Source of the DNA: Nitrospira sp.
Lineage (GTDB): Bacteria > Nitrospirota > Nitrospiria > Nitrospirales > Nitrospiraceae
Assembly (NCBI GenBank): GCA_024998595.1
Contig: JACOEK010000004.1
Span: 372,001 to 436,000, forward strand
Direction of reading: 5' to 3'
Length of the DNA: 64,000 nt
The notes below the pieces were generated by a model. That model saw nothing but the letters and a program-made list of their open reading frames with translations, did no database searches and was not told where the DNA came from. A program made the position numbers and the translations under genes. Below, one piece after another: positions 13,895-21,697 of the stretch. Within the stretch, counting starts at the first letter, position 1, and the number at the start of each line of letters is the position of its first letter.

Positions 13895-13898
13895 TGGG

Positions 13899-14022
13899 CA
13901 GGACGTTGAAAAAGGCCCCCGGCTGCGTTCTCACTTCGCTCAAGCACTCGACGTACAGCGCAAAGTACGCCTCGCTTTTTCGCTCGCTGCGGCCTTGCCG
14001 GAGATCCTTTTTGAACGTCCTG
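13899..14022. repeat. Long imperfect palindrome, copy 1 (divergent subtype)
   Basis: 124-bp element between the two paralogous radical SAM genes. The outer arms CAGGACGTTGAAAAAGG and CCTTTTTGAACGTCCTG are complementary with one mismatch. The inner part carries GACGTACAGC...AAAGTACGCC, matching the core of the other copies. It begins four bases after the stop codon of the upstream gene. Confidence 0.7.
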
Positions 14023-14048
14023 AAAAATACCATAGCAGGTGAGCAATC

Positions 14049-16010
14049 GTGAGTGGTCTTGTTCAAATCGACGGGCTGTCGCCGATCAAGAAAGAAGATC
14101 GGAAGCAGTCGAAGGTCATGTTGCTGTTCCCGCCTGAGTGGGTGCCGACGGCGCCCTATCTTGCCTTGCCTTCGTTGACCGCCGTGTTGCGTGAAGCCGG
14201 GCATACGGTGGTGCAGCGCGACATCAACATTGAGATGTACGACCATTTCTTCACCATGGAGTTTCTGATCTGGGTGAAGGGCCGCCTGGGCATGCACCTC
14301 AAGCCGCTTCAGGACAAGGAGAAGGCGGGGACGCTGACCGACCAGGAAGCCGGCCAGAAAGCGGTGCTGGAAGACGCCTATGCGGTCGATGTCTTCGATC
14401 TCGCGGAGCGCGCCGAGGACGCGAAGCTGGTCGTGCGCGGCGAGCGGTTTTACGAGGCTGAAAAGCTGGAGCGCGCGCTGAATACGTTTCGCGAAGCGAT
14501 GCAGTACATCTCCGCTGCCTATTACCCGGCCTCGCTCGTGTTTTACCCGATGGAAAGTAATCTCGGTTACCGGCCCGGCGTGTCGCAGGAAGTGTTCGCC
14601 TGCCTCGACGACGAGCAGGTGAACGTCTACCGCGACATCTGCAATCAGTTGGTGCTGCCGAGCGTGAGCAAAGAGAGGCCGGAGGTGATCGGCATCTCCA
14701 TCGGCACGCAAATGCAGCTGATGGCGGGCCTGACGTTCTGCAAGATGATCAAGGAAAGTTTTCCGGAGATCCGCGTCGTGGTCGGCGGCAACGTCGTCAC
14801 GCGGTTGCAGGAAGAATGGGCGCACCACGAGCGGTTCTTTACCGAGGTCTTCGACGCGGCCATTTTGTACGAAGGCGAGCATGCGCTCCTCTGGTACCTG
14901 GAGGCTGTGAACGGCCAACGGGCGATTGAGCAGGTGCCCAACCTCATGTATCGCGACGCGGCGGGCGTGAAGCAGAGCAAGGAAGTCTACACGGAGAAAA
15001 CCGCGGCGCTGCCGTTGCCGGATTTCGACGGCCTGCCGCTGGATCGCTATTTCGTGCCCGAGCGGATCATTCCCTACCTCGCTACGCGCGGTTGTTACTG
15101 GGGCCGGTGCACCTTCTGCGATCACGGCCAGGGGTATTTCGACCAGTACCGCGGCATGAGCGCACAGCATGTGGTGGAGCAGGTGACGGCGCTGCGGGAT
15201 AAGTACAACTGCCGCCACTTTCTATTTTCCGACGAATCCTATCCGCCCGCGTTGTTCAAGAAGGTGTCGCAACTGCTCGTGGAGAAGAACGTCGGTATCA
15301 AGTGGACGACGCTGATCCGCTTTGAGGAGACCTTGCAGGACCAGGCGATTTGGGATCTGGCGGCGAAGGCCGGCTGCTGCACGTTGTACTACGGCATGGA
15401 GTCGGCGAACGAGCGCGTCCTGAATCTCATGGACAAACATGCGCGGAAGAGCGTGATCCAGAACAATCTGCATCAGGCGGCCAAGGCCGGCATCTGGAAC
15501 CATGTGATGGCGTTTTACGGGTTCCCGGGCGAGACGCGTGATGAGGCGCTGGAGACGCGGCAGTTCGTCATCGACAATCAGCCGGTGATCCATTCCGTCG
15601 AGTTGTTTTATTTCGTGGCGTACCGCCATACGCCGATGGTGCGCAATCCGGAGAAGTTCGGCATCACCATCCATAAGCAGGAGGAATATGACCTGCCGCT
15701 GGACTACTATTACACGCTGAATGAACCGGTGGGGATTTCCTGTCTCGACGCGATGCAGCTCTGCGAAGAGTTCTACAAGAACGACTTTCAGCCCTGGGCG
15801 GTGCGGGTGAACAGCCGCGAACATGTCTTTCTGTATATCTCCAAGTTCGGCACGAACAAGCTCCCGCAGATTTATGCGGCCACGAAGGACGGCGCCGCGA
15901 CGGAAGGGGTATCGGGTCTGGTGACCTGGCCGATGGCCGTGGCCGAAGGAGCAGGGGAGAAGGACGGCGAGACGTCGATGTCGCGGGTGGTCTCTCACGG
16001 GGTCGAGTAG
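14049..16010 (+). CDS. B12-binding-domain radical SAM protein 2 (paralogue of the upstream gene)
   Basis: 653 aa, co-linear with the 11996-13894 protein over nearly its full length: same LLFPPEWVPTAPYLALPSLT start, the same ~90-residue helical insert, ERPEVIGISIGTQMQLM, VVVGGNVVTRLQEEW, and RGCYWGRCTFCDHG with C349/C354/C357 spaced C-x4-C-x2-C. The barrel carries FLFSDESYPPALFKK and FYGFPGETRDEALET. The two sequences are related but clearly diverged, so they probably act on different substrates or as partners. A repeat separates them, but both read in the same direction and may be co-transcribed. The reaction is unknown; methyl transfer to carbon or a ring-forming rearrangement are the usual options. 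Confidence 0.82.
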   Translation: MSGLVQIDGLSPIKKEDRKQSKVMLLFPPEWVPTAPYLALPSLTAVLREAGHTVVQRDINIEMYDHFFTMEFLIWVKGRLGMHLKPLQDKEKAGTLTDQEAGQKAVLEDAYAVDVFDLAERAEDAKLVVRGERFYEAEKLERALNTFREAMQYISAAYYPASLVFYPMESNLGYRPGVSQEVFACLDDEQVNVYRDICNQLVLPSVSKERPEVIGISIGTQMQLMAGLTFCKMIKESFPEIRVVVGGNVVTRLQEEWAHHERFFTEVFDAAILYEGEHALLWYLEAVNGQRAIEQVPNLMYRDAAGVKQSKEVYTEKTAALPLPDFDGLPLDRYFVPERIIPYLATRGCYWGRCTFCDHGQGYFDQYRGMSAQHVVEQVTALRDKYNCRHFLFSDESYPPALFKKVSQLLVEKNVGIKWTTLIRFEETLQDQAIWDLAAKAGCCTLYYGMESANERVLNLMDKHARKSVIQNNLHQAAKAGIWNHVMAFYGFPGETRDEALETRQFVIDNQPVIHSVELFYFVAYRHTPMVRNPEKFGITIHKQEEYDLPLDYYYTLNEPVGISCLDAMQLCEEFYKNDFQPWAVRVNSREHVFLYISKFGTNKLPQIYAATKDGAATEGVSGLVTWPMAVAEGAGEKDGETSMSRVVSHGVE

Positions 16011-16012
16011 CC

Positions 16013-16134
16013 CGGATGATGAAAACGCCATCTCACGGCGTTCTCGGTCGGCTGTCTCCCTGCGACGTACCGCAAGGGTACGCCTCAGTCGCCACCCTCC
16101 CTGCGGTCTTGTGACATGACGTTTTGATCATCCG
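16013..16134. repeat. Long imperfect palindrome, copy 2
   Basis: 122-bp element starting three bases after the stop of the second radical SAM gene. Outer arms CGGATGATGAAAACG and CGTTTTGATCATCCG pair with one mismatch. The core is GCGACGTACC-GCAA-GGGTACGCC with a flanking TCAGTCGC pairing. It sits between convergent genes. Confidence 0.8.
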
Positions 16135-16170
16135 ATCGGGATGCAGGTAGGGTTGGATGACTATCGACGA

Positions 16171-16419
16171 TCAGGTCGTGGGCTTTTCGGAGACGAGTAA
16201 AGACGAGAGCAGGACATACGAGGCTTCGACGAGGCGGGTCATCTCTTCGGCTTTTGTGTAGGCTTGCATGTATTTCTTGGGGTTGTTGGTCAGGTTGGCG
16301 AAGCGGCGCGGGGTCCAGGTATGGAGCAGTGCATCGCGCTTCTGATCGAGTTGCTCGCGGGTAAAGGGCTGTGTGAGCGCGAAGAGTGCGAGTGCGTCGG
16401 TGAGGCGTTTCTCGGTCAT
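16171..16419 (-). CDS. Small J-domain-like protein lacking the HPD motif
   Basis: 82 aa. The order of helices resembles a J-domain: ALALFALTQPFTREQLDQKR (helices I-II) and then a terminal helix EEMTRLVEASYVLLSSLL like the helix-III EAYxxL end of J-domains. The loop that would hold His-Pro-Asp reads HTWTPRRFANLTNNPKKYMQ, with no HPD, so it cannot stimulate Hsp70 in the normal way. This is a weak similarity judged by eye. It lies on the opposite strand among three radical SAM genes. Start at 16419; family otherwise unknown. Confidence 0.5.
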   Translation of the reverse strand: MTEKRLTDALALFALTQPFTREQLDQKRDALLHTWTPRRFANLTNNPKKYMQAYTKAEEMTRLVEASYVLLSSLLVSEKPTT

Positions 16420-16500
16420 GTCACGGAGTCTGGCAAGTCGACGATGACCCTGTCAATCTCACACGGGCTGCCCCAGCGGCGATAGGCGAACCGGTTCACC

Positions 16501-17742
16501 ATGCCCACCACGCTTCCTATCTTTCAGCCGACTCCCATCTTCAAAGATCGCACCGATTATCGGCAGGTGCTTATCAGAGAAATGGAGGCGGGGAAAATTC
16601 CCCTGAGTCTGGGCCGGGACTGTCCGGTCAAATGCGAGTTCTGTTACGAACTCGACCACTCCTACCGCGAAACGCTCGATCCGCCCAAAACCAGCGATGA
16701 GGACTGGAAGTTCATCCTCGACTACATCAGCCGGAAGCCGACCGATCCCACGCAGTTCTGGTGTCTGGGCGGCAACGAGTTCATGGAATGGACCGATCTG
16801 TTTCTCCATCCCAAGGCGATGGAATGGGTCGAGGACTTTCTCAAATATACCGACAAAAGTATTCAGTTCTTCACCGTCGGGTTTGTGCATGTGCCGAAGA
16901 TCCACCAGCTGGTGGCGCAGTATCCGGGACGGATCAACTTCGAACTCTCGGTCATCACGCTCAGTGACTATCGGCAGCGGTTGATGCCCCATGCGCCTTC
17001 GGTGAAACATCTCATGAAAGTGTTGGACGGGCCGGCTGTGTCTTCCGCCAATTTCTACGCGTTCGACAAGGATACGATGTCCAAGGACGCCGCGACGATT
17101 TCAGCCATCAACCAGCAATGTGTGCTCTGGATGGGGACGCTCACTCCTGTGCGGGGACTCAAGGAGGAGACGGCTTCGCTCATGCGACAGGGGCGGAAGT
17201 TCTTGCCGGAGGAAGCGACGCGGATCTATCAATTGGGATTGCCGAATCTCCAGACCGTCCACACGGAATCCTATACGACGGCGTTCCTGAGCCGTCGACG
17301 CATCGTGAGTCTGTTCGATTCGTTGGAGCTGGAGAAGAAGGATACGGTGGTGATGGCCGGGAGCGTCCACAAAATCCTGACCATGTTCCGGAAAAACCGC
17401 GCGAAGTTTCTCTACGTCCCCAATGCCTTACTGAGCGGCGATTCCGATTGCACGGTGTTGCTGACCTTCGATGATATTGCGCGGCGACTGACGAATCAGA
17501 AAGCCATCCACGTGCCGAAATGCATCATGCAGTCGGGGCGCGGCCCCTATACTGACATCACCGGCGTGAGTCTGGAGCAGTTCACCAAGAAGACCGGTGT
17601 GCGCGTGAAAGTGCTGCACAAGATCGATACCCGCTTCGCCAATCAGCAACTCTACCGGAACGGCTCATTGCAGAACTACGTGGAGCAATACCTCAACAAT
17701 CCGTTGAGGGGTGCGTATGAAGCCATTCCACGCCCAGTTTAG
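16501..17742 (+). CDS. Radical SAM protein 3 (unknown function)
   Basis: 413 aa. GRDCPVKCEFCYE (C41, C45, C48) is a canonical C-x3-C-x2-C radical SAM cluster motif, unlike the two upstream paralogues. The following LGGNEFMEW resembles the GGE/SAM-contact region of the half-barrel, and FELSVITLSDYRQRLMPHAP continues the barrel. There is no B12 domain and no SPASM cysteine cluster was identified, although isolated later Cys residues (in QQCVLWMG and PKCIMQSG) are present. The C-terminal third (from ~330) looks like a separate accessory domain. Its proximity to the two B12-radical SAM genes suggests a shared pathway, but this is inferred from position only. Confidence 0.75.
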   Translation: MPTTLPIFQPTPIFKDRTDYRQVLIREMEAGKIPLSLGRDCPVKCEFCYELDHSYRETLDPPKTSDEDWKFILDYISRKPTDPTQFWCLGGNEFMEWTDLFLHPKAMEWVEDFLKYTDKSIQFFTVGFVHVPKIHQLVAQYPGRINFELSVITLSDYRQRLMPHAPSVKHLMKVLDGPAVSSANFYAFDKDTMSKDAATISAINQQCVLWMGTLTPVRGLKEETASLMRQGRKFLPEEATRIYQLGLPNLQTVHTESYTTAFLSRRRIVSLFDSLELEKKDTVVMAGSVHKILTMFRKNRAKFLYVPNALLSGDSDCTVLLTFDDIARRLTNQKAIHVPKCIMQSGRGPYTDITGVSLEQFTKKTGVRVKVLHKIDTRFANQQLYRNGSLQNYVEQYLNNPLRGAYEAIPRPV

Positions 17743-17744
17743 CC

Positions 17745-17864
17745 GGCTGGTGAAAACGGCATATCGCGCCGTTCTCGGTCGCGTGCCTCCTTGCGACGTA
17801 CCGCAAGGGTACGCCTCAGTCGGTCCGCTCCCTGCGGCCTTGCCATATGCCGTTTTGACCAGCC
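17745..17864. repeat. Long imperfect palindrome, copy 3
   Basis: 120-bp element beginning three bases after the stop of the third radical SAM gene. The arms GGCTGGTGAAAACGGCATAT and ATATGCCGTTTTGACCAGCC are complementary except at one base. The core is GCGACGTACC-GCAA-GGGTACGCC, as in copy 2. The arm sequence differs from copy 2 but stays complementary, so pairing has been maintained. Confidence 0.8.
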
Positions 17865-17890
17865 AGCCTACAGATTAGCTTGAATGCCGA

Positions 17891-17944
17891 CTCCGGGTTG
17901 AGTTCGCCTGCAGCCTAGTGGGACGCCGTTTTGAGCAGCCCTCC
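17891..17944. repeat. Half copy (right half) of the long palindrome
   Basis: The stretch from CTCCGGGTTGAGTTCGCCTG through CGCCGTTTTGAGCAGCC matches the right half of copies at 20696-20816 and 21583-21697. No left half is present, so this is a truncated copy about 30 bp downstream of copy 3. Confidence 0.6.
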
Positions 17945-18038
17945 AAATTCCTACATTCTGACCCGCTTAGCGTTGTCGCCCCCTTGCAAAAAATACTGAC
18001 TCGGGGCAACATGCCGCCAGCATCTTCTTGAGGAGTGT

Positions 18039-18968
18039 ATGCCCGGGCAACGCCGATTGCAGTTCTATCAAGCCGACGTCTTTACCGATGAACCCTTCGG
18101 CGGGAATCCCGTCGCGGTGTTTCCCGATGCGGATGGGCTGACCGATGTCGAACTGCAGCAGATCGCCCGCGAGATGAATCTCTCCGAAACCGTCTTTGTC
18201 TTTCCCCCCACCGACCAGGCGGCCGTCGTTAAGATGCGCATTTTTACGCCGACGCAGGAAATTCCCTTCGCCGGCCATCCCGTCATCGGGACCTTTTTCG
18301 TGCTGGGTACCTTGGATCGCCTTGCGCTCCGGGAGCCGGTCACGCGAGTGCTGCAGGAATGTAATCTCGGACTGTTTCCCGTCGATATCCATTCGCATGA
18401 CGGGGTGATCGAACGCGTGGTCATGGCACAACCGAGCCCGGAGTTCCTGGATGTGATCGATGAACCGGAAGCGTTGTTCGCCATCGCCCGCTCCCTGGGC
18501 ATCAACAAGTCGGCGATTACCGAAAGCCGCTTTCCCGTGCAGGTAGTCTCCACAGGGCTTCCCGTCATCATTGTGCCGGTGCGGACCCTGACTGCGGTAC
18601 GTTCGATCGTTCCCGATGTCGCAGCCATCGCCGAGTTGTCTCAGCAGTATGGCGCGAACGGCATGATGGTGTTCAGCACGATGACGGTCGAACAATCCTC
18701 CACGGTGCATACCCGCATGTTCGCGCCGTTGATCGGTATTGTGGAAGATCCCGCGACTGGAAGCGCCAGCGGCGCCTTGGGCGCTTATCTCGTGCAACAT
18801 GGCGTCGTGGATATCAGACCTGAGACTGAGATCACGGCGGAACAGGGCTATGAGATCGATCGTCCGTCTCGCATTTTGATTCAGGTGAATTCCGACGACG
18901 ATGCGATTCAAGGGGTGATGGTTGGTGGTGAGGCGGTGATGGTGGTGGAGGGGACGCTCACCTTTTAG
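18039..18968 (+). CDS. PhzF-family isomerase/epimerase
   Basis: 309 aa with the two-lobed PhzF fold: FYQADVFTDEPFGGNPVAVF at the N-terminus, NLSETVFVFPP with the catalytic Glu of the family, IPFAGHPVIGTFFV, and EDPATGSASGALGAYLV in the second lobe. PhzF isomerises dihydro-hydroxyanthranilate in phenazine synthesis, but most family members act elsewhere on unknown substrates, and no other phz gene is here. The start at 18039 is preceded by GAGGAG. It is followed immediately by a long palindrome (18969), which may terminate the transcript. Confidence 0.88.
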   Translation: MPGQRRLQFYQADVFTDEPFGGNPVAVFPDADGLTDVELQQIAREMNLSETVFVFPPTDQAAVVKMRIFTPTQEIPFAGHPVIGTFFVLGTLDRLALREPVTRVLQECNLGLFPVDIHSHDGVIERVVMAQPSPEFLDVIDEPEALFAIARSLGINKSAITESRFPVQVVSTGLPVIIVPVRTLTAVRSIVPDVAAIAELSQQYGANGMMVFSTMTVEQSSTVHTRMFAPLIGIVEDPATGSASGALGAYLVQHGVVDIRPETEITAEQGYEIDRPSRILIQVNSDDDAIQGVMVGGEAVMVVEGTLTF

Positions 18969-19092
18969 CAGGACGATGAAAACGCCATCTCACTGCGTTC
19001 TCGGTCGCCCGTCTCCCTGCGACGTACCACAAGGGTACGACTCAGTCGCCGCGCTCCCTGCGGCCTTGTGACAGGGCGTTTTGATCGTCCTG
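18969..19092. repeat. Long imperfect palindrome, copy 4
   Basis: 124-bp element directly after the phzF-like stop codon. Arms CAGGACGATGAAAACGCC and GGCGTTTTGATCGTCCTG pair with one mismatch. The core is GCGACGTACC-ACAA-GGGTACGAC, one stem base changed relative to copies 2 and 3. Confidence 0.8.
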
Positions 19093-19176
19093 CGGGAGAT
19101 GGTTAAGGACCTGTACTCTCGGAATCACAGTGCGGCGTGACACGTCATGTCGTAATGAATTACAGGGGAGGATGAT

Positions 19177-20208
19177 ATGAACGCGGTTGTCTTTCACGAG
19201 CATGGCGGGCCGGGCAAACTCCAGTATCAAGAAATGCCGATGCCGACGATCGGTGTCGAGGAGGTCCTCGTGCAGGTGAAGGCTTGCGCGTTGAACCATC
19301 TGGATATCTGGATCAGGCAGGGAAGTCCCGCCTATCCGATGCCGCTCCCGCATATCCTCGGTTCGGACGTGGCCGGGGTGGTGCAGGAGATCGGTTCGCA
19401 GGTGGAAGGGGTGGCGGTCGGGGAGCGCGTGTATGTATCTCCCGGTGTCGGCTGCGGCCGCTGCGAGCAATGTTATGCCGGGCGCGACAACATGTGCCGT
19501 TCGTATGGGTTGATCGGGGCGATGTGCCATGGTGGCTACGCGGACTATGTGAAGGTACCGGCCCGGAACGTGCGGCCGATTCCTGGTGCGCTGTCTTTCG
19601 AACAGTCCGCGGCTTTTCCTTTGGTCTCCGTCACCGCCTGGCATATGTTGTTCGGATTGGCGGAGGTGCGGCCCGGCGAAGATGTGTTGATCATGGGCGC
19701 GGGCAGCGGTGTCGGGCATATGGCGATTCAAATGGCCAAACTGGCCGGCGCACGCGTGATCACCACGGTCGGGAGCGAGGAAAAAGTCGCGAAGGCTAAG
19801 GCGCTCGGCGCGGACGACGTGATCATTCACAGCCGTGAGCAGGTCAATCAGCGAGTGCGCGAGTTGACCCAGCGCCGCGGTGTGGATGTGGTGATCGAGC
19901 ACATCGGCCCGGAGGTGTGGACGCAGTGCATCGATTCGCTGGCGAAGGGCGGGCGGCTGGTCACCTGTGGCGCCACGACTGGGGCGGAGGTCAAGCTTGA
20001 CTTGCGCTACGTGTACTCGCGGCAGCTCACGATCAAGGGGTCGTACATGGGGTCCCAGAGCGAGTTGTGGAAGGCCGCTCATCTGATTGGCGAAGGGAAG
20101 TTGCGACCGGTGATCGATCGGACCTTTCCGCTGTCCGAGGCGAAGGCGGCGCAAGAATATCTTCTGAATCGGAAATTTTTTGGTAAAATCGTGCTCACTG
20201 TTTCGTAA
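19177..20208 (+). CDS. Zinc-type medium-chain dehydrogenase/reductase (alcohol dehydrogenase/quinone reductase family)
   Basis: 343 aa. The N-terminal GroES-like domain has KACALNHLDIWIRQG and HILGSDVAGVV. The structural zinc site is CGRCEQCYAGRDNMC (four Cys). In place of the usual Cys/His catalytic pair, the residues around ALNHLD are atypical, so the catalytic zinc is uncertain. The Rossmann domain follows, with IMGAGSGVGHMAIQMAKLAG and the later VIEHIGPEVW. NAD(P)-dependent; substrates could be alcohols, aldehydes or quinones. Ribosome site AGGGGAGGATG precedes the ATG at 19177. It sits between two long palindromes, so probably as a monocistronic unit or with the CBS gene 50 bp downstream. 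Confidence 0.85.
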   Translation: MNAVVFHEHGGPGKLQYQEMPMPTIGVEEVLVQVKACALNHLDIWIRQGSPAYPMPLPHILGSDVAGVVQEIGSQVEGVAVGERVYVSPGVGCGRCEQCYAGRDNMCRSYGLIGAMCHGGYADYVKVPARNVRPIPGALSFEQSAAFPLVSVTAWHMLFGLAEVRPGEDVLIMGAGSGVGHMAIQMAKLAGARVITTVGSEEKVAKAKALGADDVIIHSREQVNQRVRELTQRRGVDVVIEHIGPEVWTQCIDSLAKGGRLVTCGATTGAEVKLDLRYVYSRQLTIKGSYMGSQSELWKAAHLIGEGKLRPVIDRTFPLSEAKAAQEYLLNRKFFGKIVLTVS

Positions 20209-20258
20209 TCGACTTCATTATCGGCTCTTTTGTCCCAACGGGCAGAAAGGTATGTGAC

Positions 20259-20693
20259 ATGGCGACTGTTGCGCAAATCATGAACAAGAAACCTCAAAGC
20301 GTCGGTCCGACGACGTCCATCCGCGGTGCGGCGAAGAAGATGCGCACTTTGCGGGTCAGCTCCCTGCTGATCAAGAAAGGGAAGAACCATGTCGGGATTG
20401 TGACCGACACGGATCTGGTCCGGAAGGGATTGGCCACCAATCAGGACTTAGGCAAGCTCACGGTCGAACAGGTGATGACTTCTCCGCTGTGCACCATCGA
20501 GAGCAATCAGGCCGTGGATGACGCTCAGGATATGATGGGCGATCTCAGCGTGCGCCATCTGGCCGTGACCAAAGGCGGATCGGTCGTCGGCGTGGTGTCG
20601 GTTCGCGATCTGTTGATGCACTACAAGCGGTATGCGCAATCGAGACTGGCGGATAAGCAGACGTACTCTGAGCCGAAGATCTCGCAAGACTAG
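20259..20693 (+). CDS. Tandem CBS-domain protein
   Basis: 144 aa consisting of two CBS motifs. The first runs IMNKKPQSVGPTTSIRGAAK to VGIVTDTDLVRKGL (residues ~5-55). The second runs VEQVMTSPLCTIESNQAVDD to VVGVVSVRDLLMHYK (~69-127). CBS pairs bind adenosine nucleotides (AMP, ATP, SAM or c-di-AMP) and regulate partner proteins. No enzymatic domain is attached, so it is a stand-alone sensor. A homologous 130-aa CBS protein is encoded at 43817-44209. It follows the MDR gene by 50 bp, possibly in the same transcript. Confidence 0.87.
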   Translation: MATVAQIMNKKPQSVGPTTSIRGAAKKMRTLRVSSLLIKKGKNHVGIVTDTDLVRKGLATNQDLGKLTVEQVMTSPLCTIESNQAVDDAQDMMGDLSVRHLAVTKGGSVVGVVSVRDLLMHYKRYAQSRLADKQTYSEPKISQD

Positions 20694-20695
20694 TC

Positions 20696-20816
20696 GGATG
20701 CTGAAAACGGCCTCCAGCAGCGTTCTCGGCTTATCAAAATCCTCAACGTACCGCTGCGGGTACGCCTCCGGTTTTGCTTCGCCTGCGGCCTTGCTGGACG
20801 GCCGTTTTGAGCATCC
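20696..20816. repeat. Long imperfect palindrome, copy 5 (second subtype)
   Basis: 121-bp element starting three bases after the CBS gene stop. Arms GGATGCTGAAAACGGCC and GGCCGTTTTGAGCATCC pair with one mismatch. The core is AACGTACC-GCTGC-GGGTACG, with the subtype-specific TTCGCCTGCGGCCTTGCTGG part. Confidence 0.8.
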
Positions 20817-20824
20817 TTCCGGAC

Positions 20825-20946
20825 GGATGCTGAATAGCGGGCTCCAACTTCGTTCTCAGTCGCCCATCTCCCTGCGACGTCTCGCAAGGATACGCCTCAG
20901 TCGCTGTGCTTCCTGCGGCATTGTTGAAGCACCGTTTTGAGCATCC
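20825..20946. repeat. Long imperfect palindrome, copy 6
   Basis: 122-bp element eight bases after copy 5, in tandem. It has GGATGCTGA and TTTTGAGCATCC at its ends, but the left arm has drifted (AATAGCGGGC), so pairing is weaker. The core GCGACGTCTC-GCAA-GGATACGCC belongs to the subtype of copies 2-4. It lies between convergent genes. Confidence 0.7.
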
Positions 20947-21058
20947 TCAGTCGGACTAGCCGACCGGCGGAAAACCGCTGCCAACAACAAACATCATCAG
21001 CTCACCGCAGCCAGTTCTGAGCAAACCTCAAAGCTGATTGCTGAAAGCTGACGAGCTA
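20947..21058. other. Intergenic remainder after tandem palindromes
   Basis: A 112-bp stretch with no gene. It is the rest of the 365-bp gap between the CBS gene and moaB that is otherwise filled by two long palindromes. Confidence 0.3.
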
Positions 21059-21571
21059 CTACTTCGTGAGTTCTTTGACGAGGTGACCGAGTTCGGGAAG
21101 GATGAGTTTTTCCATCGCCAAGCGCACGGCGTTCTCAGAACCTGGGGTGGAGAACAGGACGCGGCCCTTGATGATGCCGGCGGTGGCCCGGCTCATGATG
21201 GCCGGTGAACCAATGTCCTGATAGGTCAGATATCGAAACACTTCGCCGAATCCATCCAGCCGCTTTTCCAGCATGGCGTCCACGGCTTCGAACGTAGAGT
21301 CCCGCCGCGAGATTCCCGTTCCGCCGTTGATGATGACGGCTTGTACGGAATCATTGGCCACACCCTCCGTGATCCGCGCCTTGATCTGCGCCGGCTCATC
21401 TTTCACGAGATGATAGGCCGCGATCGTGTGCCCGTTCTCCTTCAAGAGCTTTTGGATCAACTGGCCACTTGTATCGGTGTCGGGCGTGCGAGTATCGCTG
21501 CAGGTGATGACCATGCAGCCGACAGATCGTGGGGCGTGGTGCTTGTGCTCTTTGTGGCTTGGAGTGCTCAT
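21059..21571 (-). CDS. moaB: Molybdenum cofactor biosynthesis protein MoaB/MogA family
   Basis: 170 aa, an MPT-binding protein that adenylylates molybdopterin before metal insertion. The N-terminal GCMVITCSDTRTPDTDTSGQ, the AVIINGGTGISRRDSTFEAV motif (GGTG for MPT binding) and the C-terminal LFSTPGSENAVRLAMEKLIL are characteristic. An acidic DDTPE-like site is represented by LVKDEPAQIKARITE. Length matches MoaB. Moco need is supported by the MOSC protein nearby and is expected in nitrite/nitrate metabolism, but no Moco enzyme is in the window. Confidence 0.88.
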   Translation of the reverse strand: MSTPSHKEHKHHAPRSVGCMVITCSDTRTPDTDTSGQLIQKLLKENGHTIAAYHLVKDEPAQIKARITEGVANDSVQAVIINGGTGISRRDSTFEAVDAMLEKRLDGFGEVFRYLTYQDIGSPAIMSRATAGIIKGRVLFSTPGSENAVRLAMEKLILPELGHLVKELTK

Positions 21572-21582
21572 AGCGATCGACT

Positions 21583-21697
21583 GATGAAAATGCCTTCCAG
21601 CGTCGTTCTCAGTTCCTCAAACTCCTCAACATACCCCTGAGGGTACGCCTCCGGGGTTGAGTCGCCTGCGGCCTTGCTGGAAAGGCATGTTGATCAT
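21583..21697. repeat. Long imperfect palindrome, copy 7 (second subtype)
   Basis: 115-bp element lying between two minus-strand genes (upstream of moaB, downstream of the ferredoxin-like gene). Arms GATGAAAATGCCTT and AAGGCATGTTGATC pair imperfectly. The core is AACATACC-CCTGA-GGGTACG, and it has the subtype segment GTCGCCTGCGGCCTTGCTGG. Confidence 0.75.

Follow-up and report, generated by a model that had tools for sequence, protein, structure and literature searches.

Insertions of IS5-family insertion sequences (ISs) show target-site duplications of the motif YTAR (PMC10359306). Bacterial miniature inverted-repeat transposable elements (MITEs), such as ERIC, NEMIS/Correia and RUP, are short, non-coding, high-copy intergenic sequences with terminal inverted repeats and, in young copies, target duplications, and the tag of GTAG-tagged repetitive extragenic palindromes (REPs) often provides a TAG stop codon (Di Nocera 2013, PMC3733652). 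Here we analysed a family of nested palindromes of about 121 bp that lies in intergenic gaps of a 64-kb stretch of Nitrospira sp. DNA (contig JACOEK010000004.1, positions 372,001 to 436,000; hereafter the window). The family is linked to IS5-family insertion sequences by the same 16-bp end, the 4-bp YTAR duplication and a transposase of the NCBIfam family transpos_IS5_4, but it is itself gene-less, and only the ends of its units match the IS, in which the 121-bp palindrome does not occur. It also has the MITE traits listed above; unlike in those elements, however, a nested palindrome with conserved unpaired motifs makes up half of the unit; this palindrome survives the decay of the rest (the tail) and is anchored at stop codons. 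As in GTAG-tagged REPs, TAG stands at one foot of the palindrome, often as the stop codon, and tandem and convergent gaps are preferred. REPs are only 20-40 bp long, however, and the family differs from them further in its matched 4-bp duplications, its IS5-type ends and the lack of a link to REP-associated tyrosine transposases (RAYTs). Integron attC sites are likewise imperfect hairpins behind a stop codon with a bottom-strand fold apparently favoured, but by eye we saw no GTTRRRY/RYYYAAC core sites (no integrase search was made), and our copies are dispersed among core, syntenic genes instead of cassettes.

The palindromes very probably form the left part of a MITE, a non-autonomous DNA transposon that an IS5-family transposase would move, and the copies without a tail very probably descend from such units. 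In Nitrospira defluvii, near-identical copies were found at many loci, and the sequence they share runs from the CAGG that follows (N)TAG to the CCTG that precedes (N)TAG, about 75 bp past the palindrome. The intact unit is 199 bp long (the 121-bp palindrome, a tail of about 75 bp and a terminal repeat) and lies between identical 4-bp duplications; its layout is a YTAR copy, a CAGGATGCNGAAAA-type end leading into the palindrome, the tail, the end repeat GTTTTTCCGCAGCCTG and again a YTAR copy. When the N. defluvii genome was scanned with the end sequences, 25 paired ends were obtained, and the left and right tetramers, usually YTAR, were identical in 18 of them against a permutation mean of 7.1 (p about 1e-5). 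The identical tetramers include the rarer CTAA/CTAA, CTAT/CTAT and CTAC/CTAC. Ten intact units in other Nitrospirota genomes showed the right repeat and an identical duplication at one fixed offset.

A candidate for the autonomous partner was found at 2773270-2774593 of N. defluvii: an insertion sequence of 1.32 kb with perfect 16-bp ends, a TTAG duplication and a 342-aa transposase, which matched the NCBIfam model NF033581 (transpos_IS5_4) with 278.9 bits at a cut-off of 140. The same IS occurs as four copies in three genomes (1314-1317 bp, perfect 16-bp ends CAGGCTGCGGAAAAAC, TTAG or CTAG duplications); the transposases in genomes G001 (two copies) and G019 are 85-87% identical, with the same ends and CTAG duplications. 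The right end of the MITE, CAGGCTGCGGAAAAAC, is identical to the IS ends, and 2 of the 16 positions are different in its left end. Since the IS shares both the 16-bp end and the kind of 4-bp duplication with the intact units, we assigned the family to the IS5-type MITEs, and the IS5 transposase would be what mobilises the units. The enzyme would move units of about 199 bp into YTAR sites; with time the tail would decay and the palindrome stay, preferentially in sense and just behind a stop codon, and the retained folded module could later gain a use. Such an origin would supply a source for the intergenic palindromes that each Nitrospira genome carries by the tens (N. defluvii has up to about 110).

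Several observations weigh against this reading. None of the window copies has a recognisable tail end or a right duplication, except that copy 3 may have a remnant at most: the left YTAG is present at copies 3-5, and the right end and its duplication are absent or decayed. Because the tail and right duplication are missing there, the origin of the window copies was deduced from the homology of the palindrome module, by which the tail-less resident copies, those of the window included, would descend from intact units. Among the 297 distinct full copies from many genomes that we used for anatomy and pair statistics, the right end was seen in just 29. The young units come mainly from one genome, N. 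defluvii, and a search of the window's own genome gave no relative of the IS5-type transposase at E<=1e-10. Finally, copies in Methylomirabilota retain the inner motifs of the palindrome with quite different outer arms, so the module may predate the pairing of its ends or be independent of it.

The placement of the copies was counted against gene ends from home-made gene calls (a simple codon-usage script). More than half of them (155/276) start -2 to 3 nt from the end of a same-strand gene, with a mode of 1 nt, and at that spacing 82 of 109 stops are TAG, versus 37% of genes overall. Divergent gaps are nearly avoided, with just 12 of the 276 copies. Among copies away from stops, TAG is still found in the same place in 18 of 74, versus 0.7% in intergenic DNA. 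The YTAR target (CTAG, TTAG, CTAA) would itself hold TAG or TAA and be duplicated by an insertion behind the stop, so that the gene would keep its stop and copies would accumulate at stop codons. The adjacency to stop codons is thus largely a matter of the insertion target, plus a later retention bias. It suggests a simple rule for the build-up of repeats at gene ends that needs no selection for a role at these ends, TAG and TAA stops being safe landing sites.

Retention could be viewed separately, as the young units differ from the old copies. The intact units (n=24) have their left end at a stop in 4 and their right end in 7 cases and show no orientation preference, whereas solo palindromes have the left end at a stop, in sense, in 161 of 288 (Fisher p 2e-4, an optimistic value because copies are related by descent). 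This difference is consistent with selective loss elsewhere or with selective sense retention at stops, and it allows placement by insertion to be told from later retention. At shared sites the element was less diverged than its flank in 278 of 300 non-independent pairs and in 13 of 19 disjoint pairs (p 0.17, not significant), and in disjoint species pairs the loop motifs were 4% diverged (7/190 sites) compared with 18% for the flanks (about 125/700). The retention bias and the conserved loop motifs perhaps point to selective retention and a later use of the folded module.

The palindrome has an outer stem of about 25 bp, in which a G.G mismatch at pair 9 is near-invariant (285/297), and conserved, mostly unpaired motifs (CGTTCTCG, CTCAACGTAC, GTACGCCTC and CTGCGGCCTTG). 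Freely varying pairs, e.g. 4, 7 and 14, remain complementary far above independence; pair 7 is Watson-Crick in 90% of copies and pair 14 in 87%, versus 37% and 35% expected if the arms were independent. The preliminary description of the window, made from its letters alone, had noted that the arms differ between copies yet stay mostly complementary, and among the seven window copies we indeed found double changes in 10 of 29 consensus pairs. At the G.G mismatch the left arm reads TGAAAA (the IS end CGGAAAA) and the inner arm TCAAAA. No target duplication was found directly after the right arm of the palindrome, which is therefore not a transposon end; plausibly, the fixed mismatch (G in the left end, C in the right arm) would bar the inner arm from acting as one. 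We also observed a subfamily with an additional hairpin of about 90 bp (CCGTTCGCCAAGAGTAT...GGCGAACGGGTC) at the palindrome apex (L095 6838-7034, L096 9177-9371, L113 8091-8288 and the C-D gap of L115).

Covariation and placement could also be explained if the palindromes were functional RNA hairpins of the 3' untranslated region, acting as a terminator, a stabiliser of the 3' end or a block to terminating ribosomes, and kept by selection on the RNA fold. The sense orientation 0-2 nt behind stop codons, the avoidance of divergent gaps, the compensatory stem changes and the low divergence of same-site loops relative to flanks would all agree with this, and work cited in PMC12306157 describes an effect on translation for E. 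coli REPs that lie near stop codons. However, the departures from pairing in the stem run the wrong way. On the sense (top) strand A-C exceeds G-U, 75:38 by nearest neighbour and 87:43 after clustering, which is the reverse of what RNA tolerates, and C-T and C-C likewise exceed A-G and G-G. The ratio of mismatches that are stable on the bottom strand to those that are stable on the top strand is 167:85 (p 3e-7). The bias has the same direction in tandem-sense (69:39), convergent (57:28) and antisense copies (30:14), and is thus not reversed in the last. Moreover, no U-tract follows the window copies, the palindromes had no Rfam match at gathering score (a tRNA was the only match in the window), and young units lack a sense preference. 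Since the stem mismatches show no sense-RNA G-U tolerance, a role as terminator or mRNA stabiliser is not supported as the cause of covariation, although it is possible as a by-product, and we consider selection on an RNA fold an improbable explanation of the family. The preliminary description had offered selection on folding, or copying with a structured intermediate. Copying holds, by way of a DDE-type transposon, with no result requiring a structured intermediate; our data suggest that fold and loops are maintained at fixed sites, but not with the mismatches of a sense RNA.

A different possibility, compatible with the MITE origin, is that the module was exapted at the DNA level and that a host protein recognises the folded single-stranded bottom strand, keeping stems, loops and sense placement. 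The excess of bottom-stable mismatches in all three copy orientations fits this, as do the absence of an overall G>A versus C>T bias in the loops, the greater stability of the bottom-strand DNA fold in 110 of 123 cluster representatives and the more frequent location at stops of solo copies than of intact units. But the recognising protein is hypothetical, the inner stem has no strand bias (53:49), the same signal could arise if stable hairpins were disfavoured on the lagging-strand template, and a DNA-level role would not need the exact spacing to stop codons; we therefore regard such recognition as a tentative and rather unlikely explanation. As far as the mismatch pattern suggests, either it is the bottom strand whose fold is maintained, or there is a bias against stable hairpins of the top strand. 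It is equally doubtful, though conceivable, that across the phylum a trimmed transposon end has repeatedly been kept as a functional module exactly behind stops through a bottom-strand DNA fold and not an RNA fold. The strand-specific mismatch test may help to tell maintenance of RNA from DNA folds in other palindrome families.

Mobilisation in the manner of REPs, in which a RAYT or Y1 (HUH) transposase would act on hairpins of single-stranded DNA that carry a TAG tag at the end, is suggested by the YTAG at the hairpin foot, which recalls the REP tag that often supplies a stop codon. REPs are defined, however, by a 20-40-bp palindrome with GTAG or CGTC, and in the present family the YTAG belongs to the duplicated target. 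As neither the window's genome nor several copy-rich relatives have Y1_Tnp and the sampled Y1 genes are not flanked by the element, this candidate is largely refuted; the matched 4-bp duplications and an IS5 element that shares the ends speak for DDE transposition, and we judge a RAYT mechanism highly improbable. Other candidates were also set aside. A coding insert like the Rickettsia palindromic elements (RPEs) was considered, and the best frame was open in 149 of 297 copies versus about 92 expected after shuffling, a mild excess. IS701 was considered as a partner, but no paper describing a YTAG target for it was found, and IS5 was adopted once the transposase was identified. No autonomous copy with palindrome halves at both ends was present among the left-only and right-only matches.

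A covariance model of the seven window copies gave 69 matches at E<=0.1 in the window's 4.23-Mb genome and also had matches in 40 of 41 relatives; genus-mates have 29-87 each, with one exception that has two. That exception is the single-contig genus-mate G004 (L120), which has short gaps at nearly all syntenic sites. In N. defluvii (G023) there were 109 matches, two sets of near-identical copies among them. Here the hits lie 40 on the plus and 16 on the minus strand in the first half of the chromosome, and 37 on the minus and 16 on the plus strand in the second; this resembles co-orientation with replication, but may merely mirror gene orientation. In a phylum sample, 124 of 296 genomes had matches at E<=1e-5; copies are found broadly in Nitrospirota and also, with different arms, in Methylomirabilota. 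A strict pattern run across GTDB genomes gave, among the matches listed, mostly Nitrospirota and a few Methylomirabilota/Rokubacteria, and one consensus and one strict pattern had no match in plasmid, phage and viral collections.

In the window itself, the model recovered all seven full copies of the preliminary description, and a partial profile match its half copy (Table 1); other-strand readings of the same copies aside, there was nothing else over the 64 kb, as had been stated there. That the copies are related and not alike by chance is borne out by the genome search, in which most matches were outside the training set, the best of them with E 1e-25. The reported start of five of the seven copies near a stop codon was also recovered, copies 1-5 beginning 1-5 nt past an in-frame stop. 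The inner hairpin CGTACC-GCAA-GGGTACG, given as typical of all copies, is exact in copies 2 and 3 and nearly so in copy 4 and varies in the remaining ones. RNA folding z-scores of the window copies range from -2.1 to -7.6, and the half copy has no fold; the latter terminates in ...GTTTTGAGCAGCC, close to the offset of the right terminal repeat in intact units. As before copy 3, a YTAR target with the stop codon precedes copy 4 (TTAG) and copy 5 (CTAG).

Table 1. Palindrome copies and an insertion target in the window (window coordinates).
Feature	Start	End	Strand	Evidence and context
Copy 1, palindrome module	13900	14021	+	covariance model 111 bits; 5 nt past TAA of upstream B12-binding radical SAM gene
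Copy 2, palindrome module	16013	16134	+	covariance model 127 bits; 2 nt past TAG stop codon
TTAG, putative YTAR-type insertion target including the stop codon of the upstream gene (copy 3)	17739	17742	+	sequence and target rule from intact units
Copy 3, palindrome module	17744	17865	+	covariance model 130 bits; left flank TTAG then C, TAG being the stop codon
Right-half copy, 3' of copy 3	17888	17940	+	profile positions 69-122, E 9e-6; offset 62 behind copy 3
Copy 4, palindrome module	18970	19091	+	covariance model 133 bits; left flank TTAG then C, TAG being the stop codon
Copy 5, palindrome module, first of tandem pair	20695	20817	+	covariance model 122 bits; left flank CTAG then T, TAG being the stop codon
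Copy 6, second of tandem pair	20824	20947	+	covariance model 118 bits
Copy 7, palindrome module	21578	21700	+	covariance model 105 bits; antisense to both neighbouring genes

The genes around the window copies encode B12-binding radical SAM proteins, a PhzF-like protein, a zinc-binding dehydrogenase, a CBS-domain protein and a MoCF-type protein. Gene order is conserved genus-wide, and many species have copies in the same gaps, where gains, losses and tandem arrays are seen. The tandem site of copies 5 and 6 has 1-4 units in relatives at a spacing of about 131 bp. After the second radical SAM gene, an additional copy lies in several species precisely between the stop codon and the copy that was there before. 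Where the gap orthologous to 13895-14048 lacks the element (L091, L093, L095, L097, L111-L114), it often holds unrelated palindromic repeats after the stop (GTGAGACGTGAAAGGTGAAACG...CGTTTCACG), which indicates that several palindrome families share gene ends. The site of window copy 7, between the MoCF gene and the next minus-strand gene, holds another dispersed inverted repeat in L089 and L119 (TCAGCTCTCAGCC...GCTGAGAGCTGACGG). In the gap 18969-19176, the element and its flank are a few % diverged between some species, compared with a difference of about 40% at the fourfold sites of the preceding gene, and this low divergence suggests interspecies exchange of the intergenic region.

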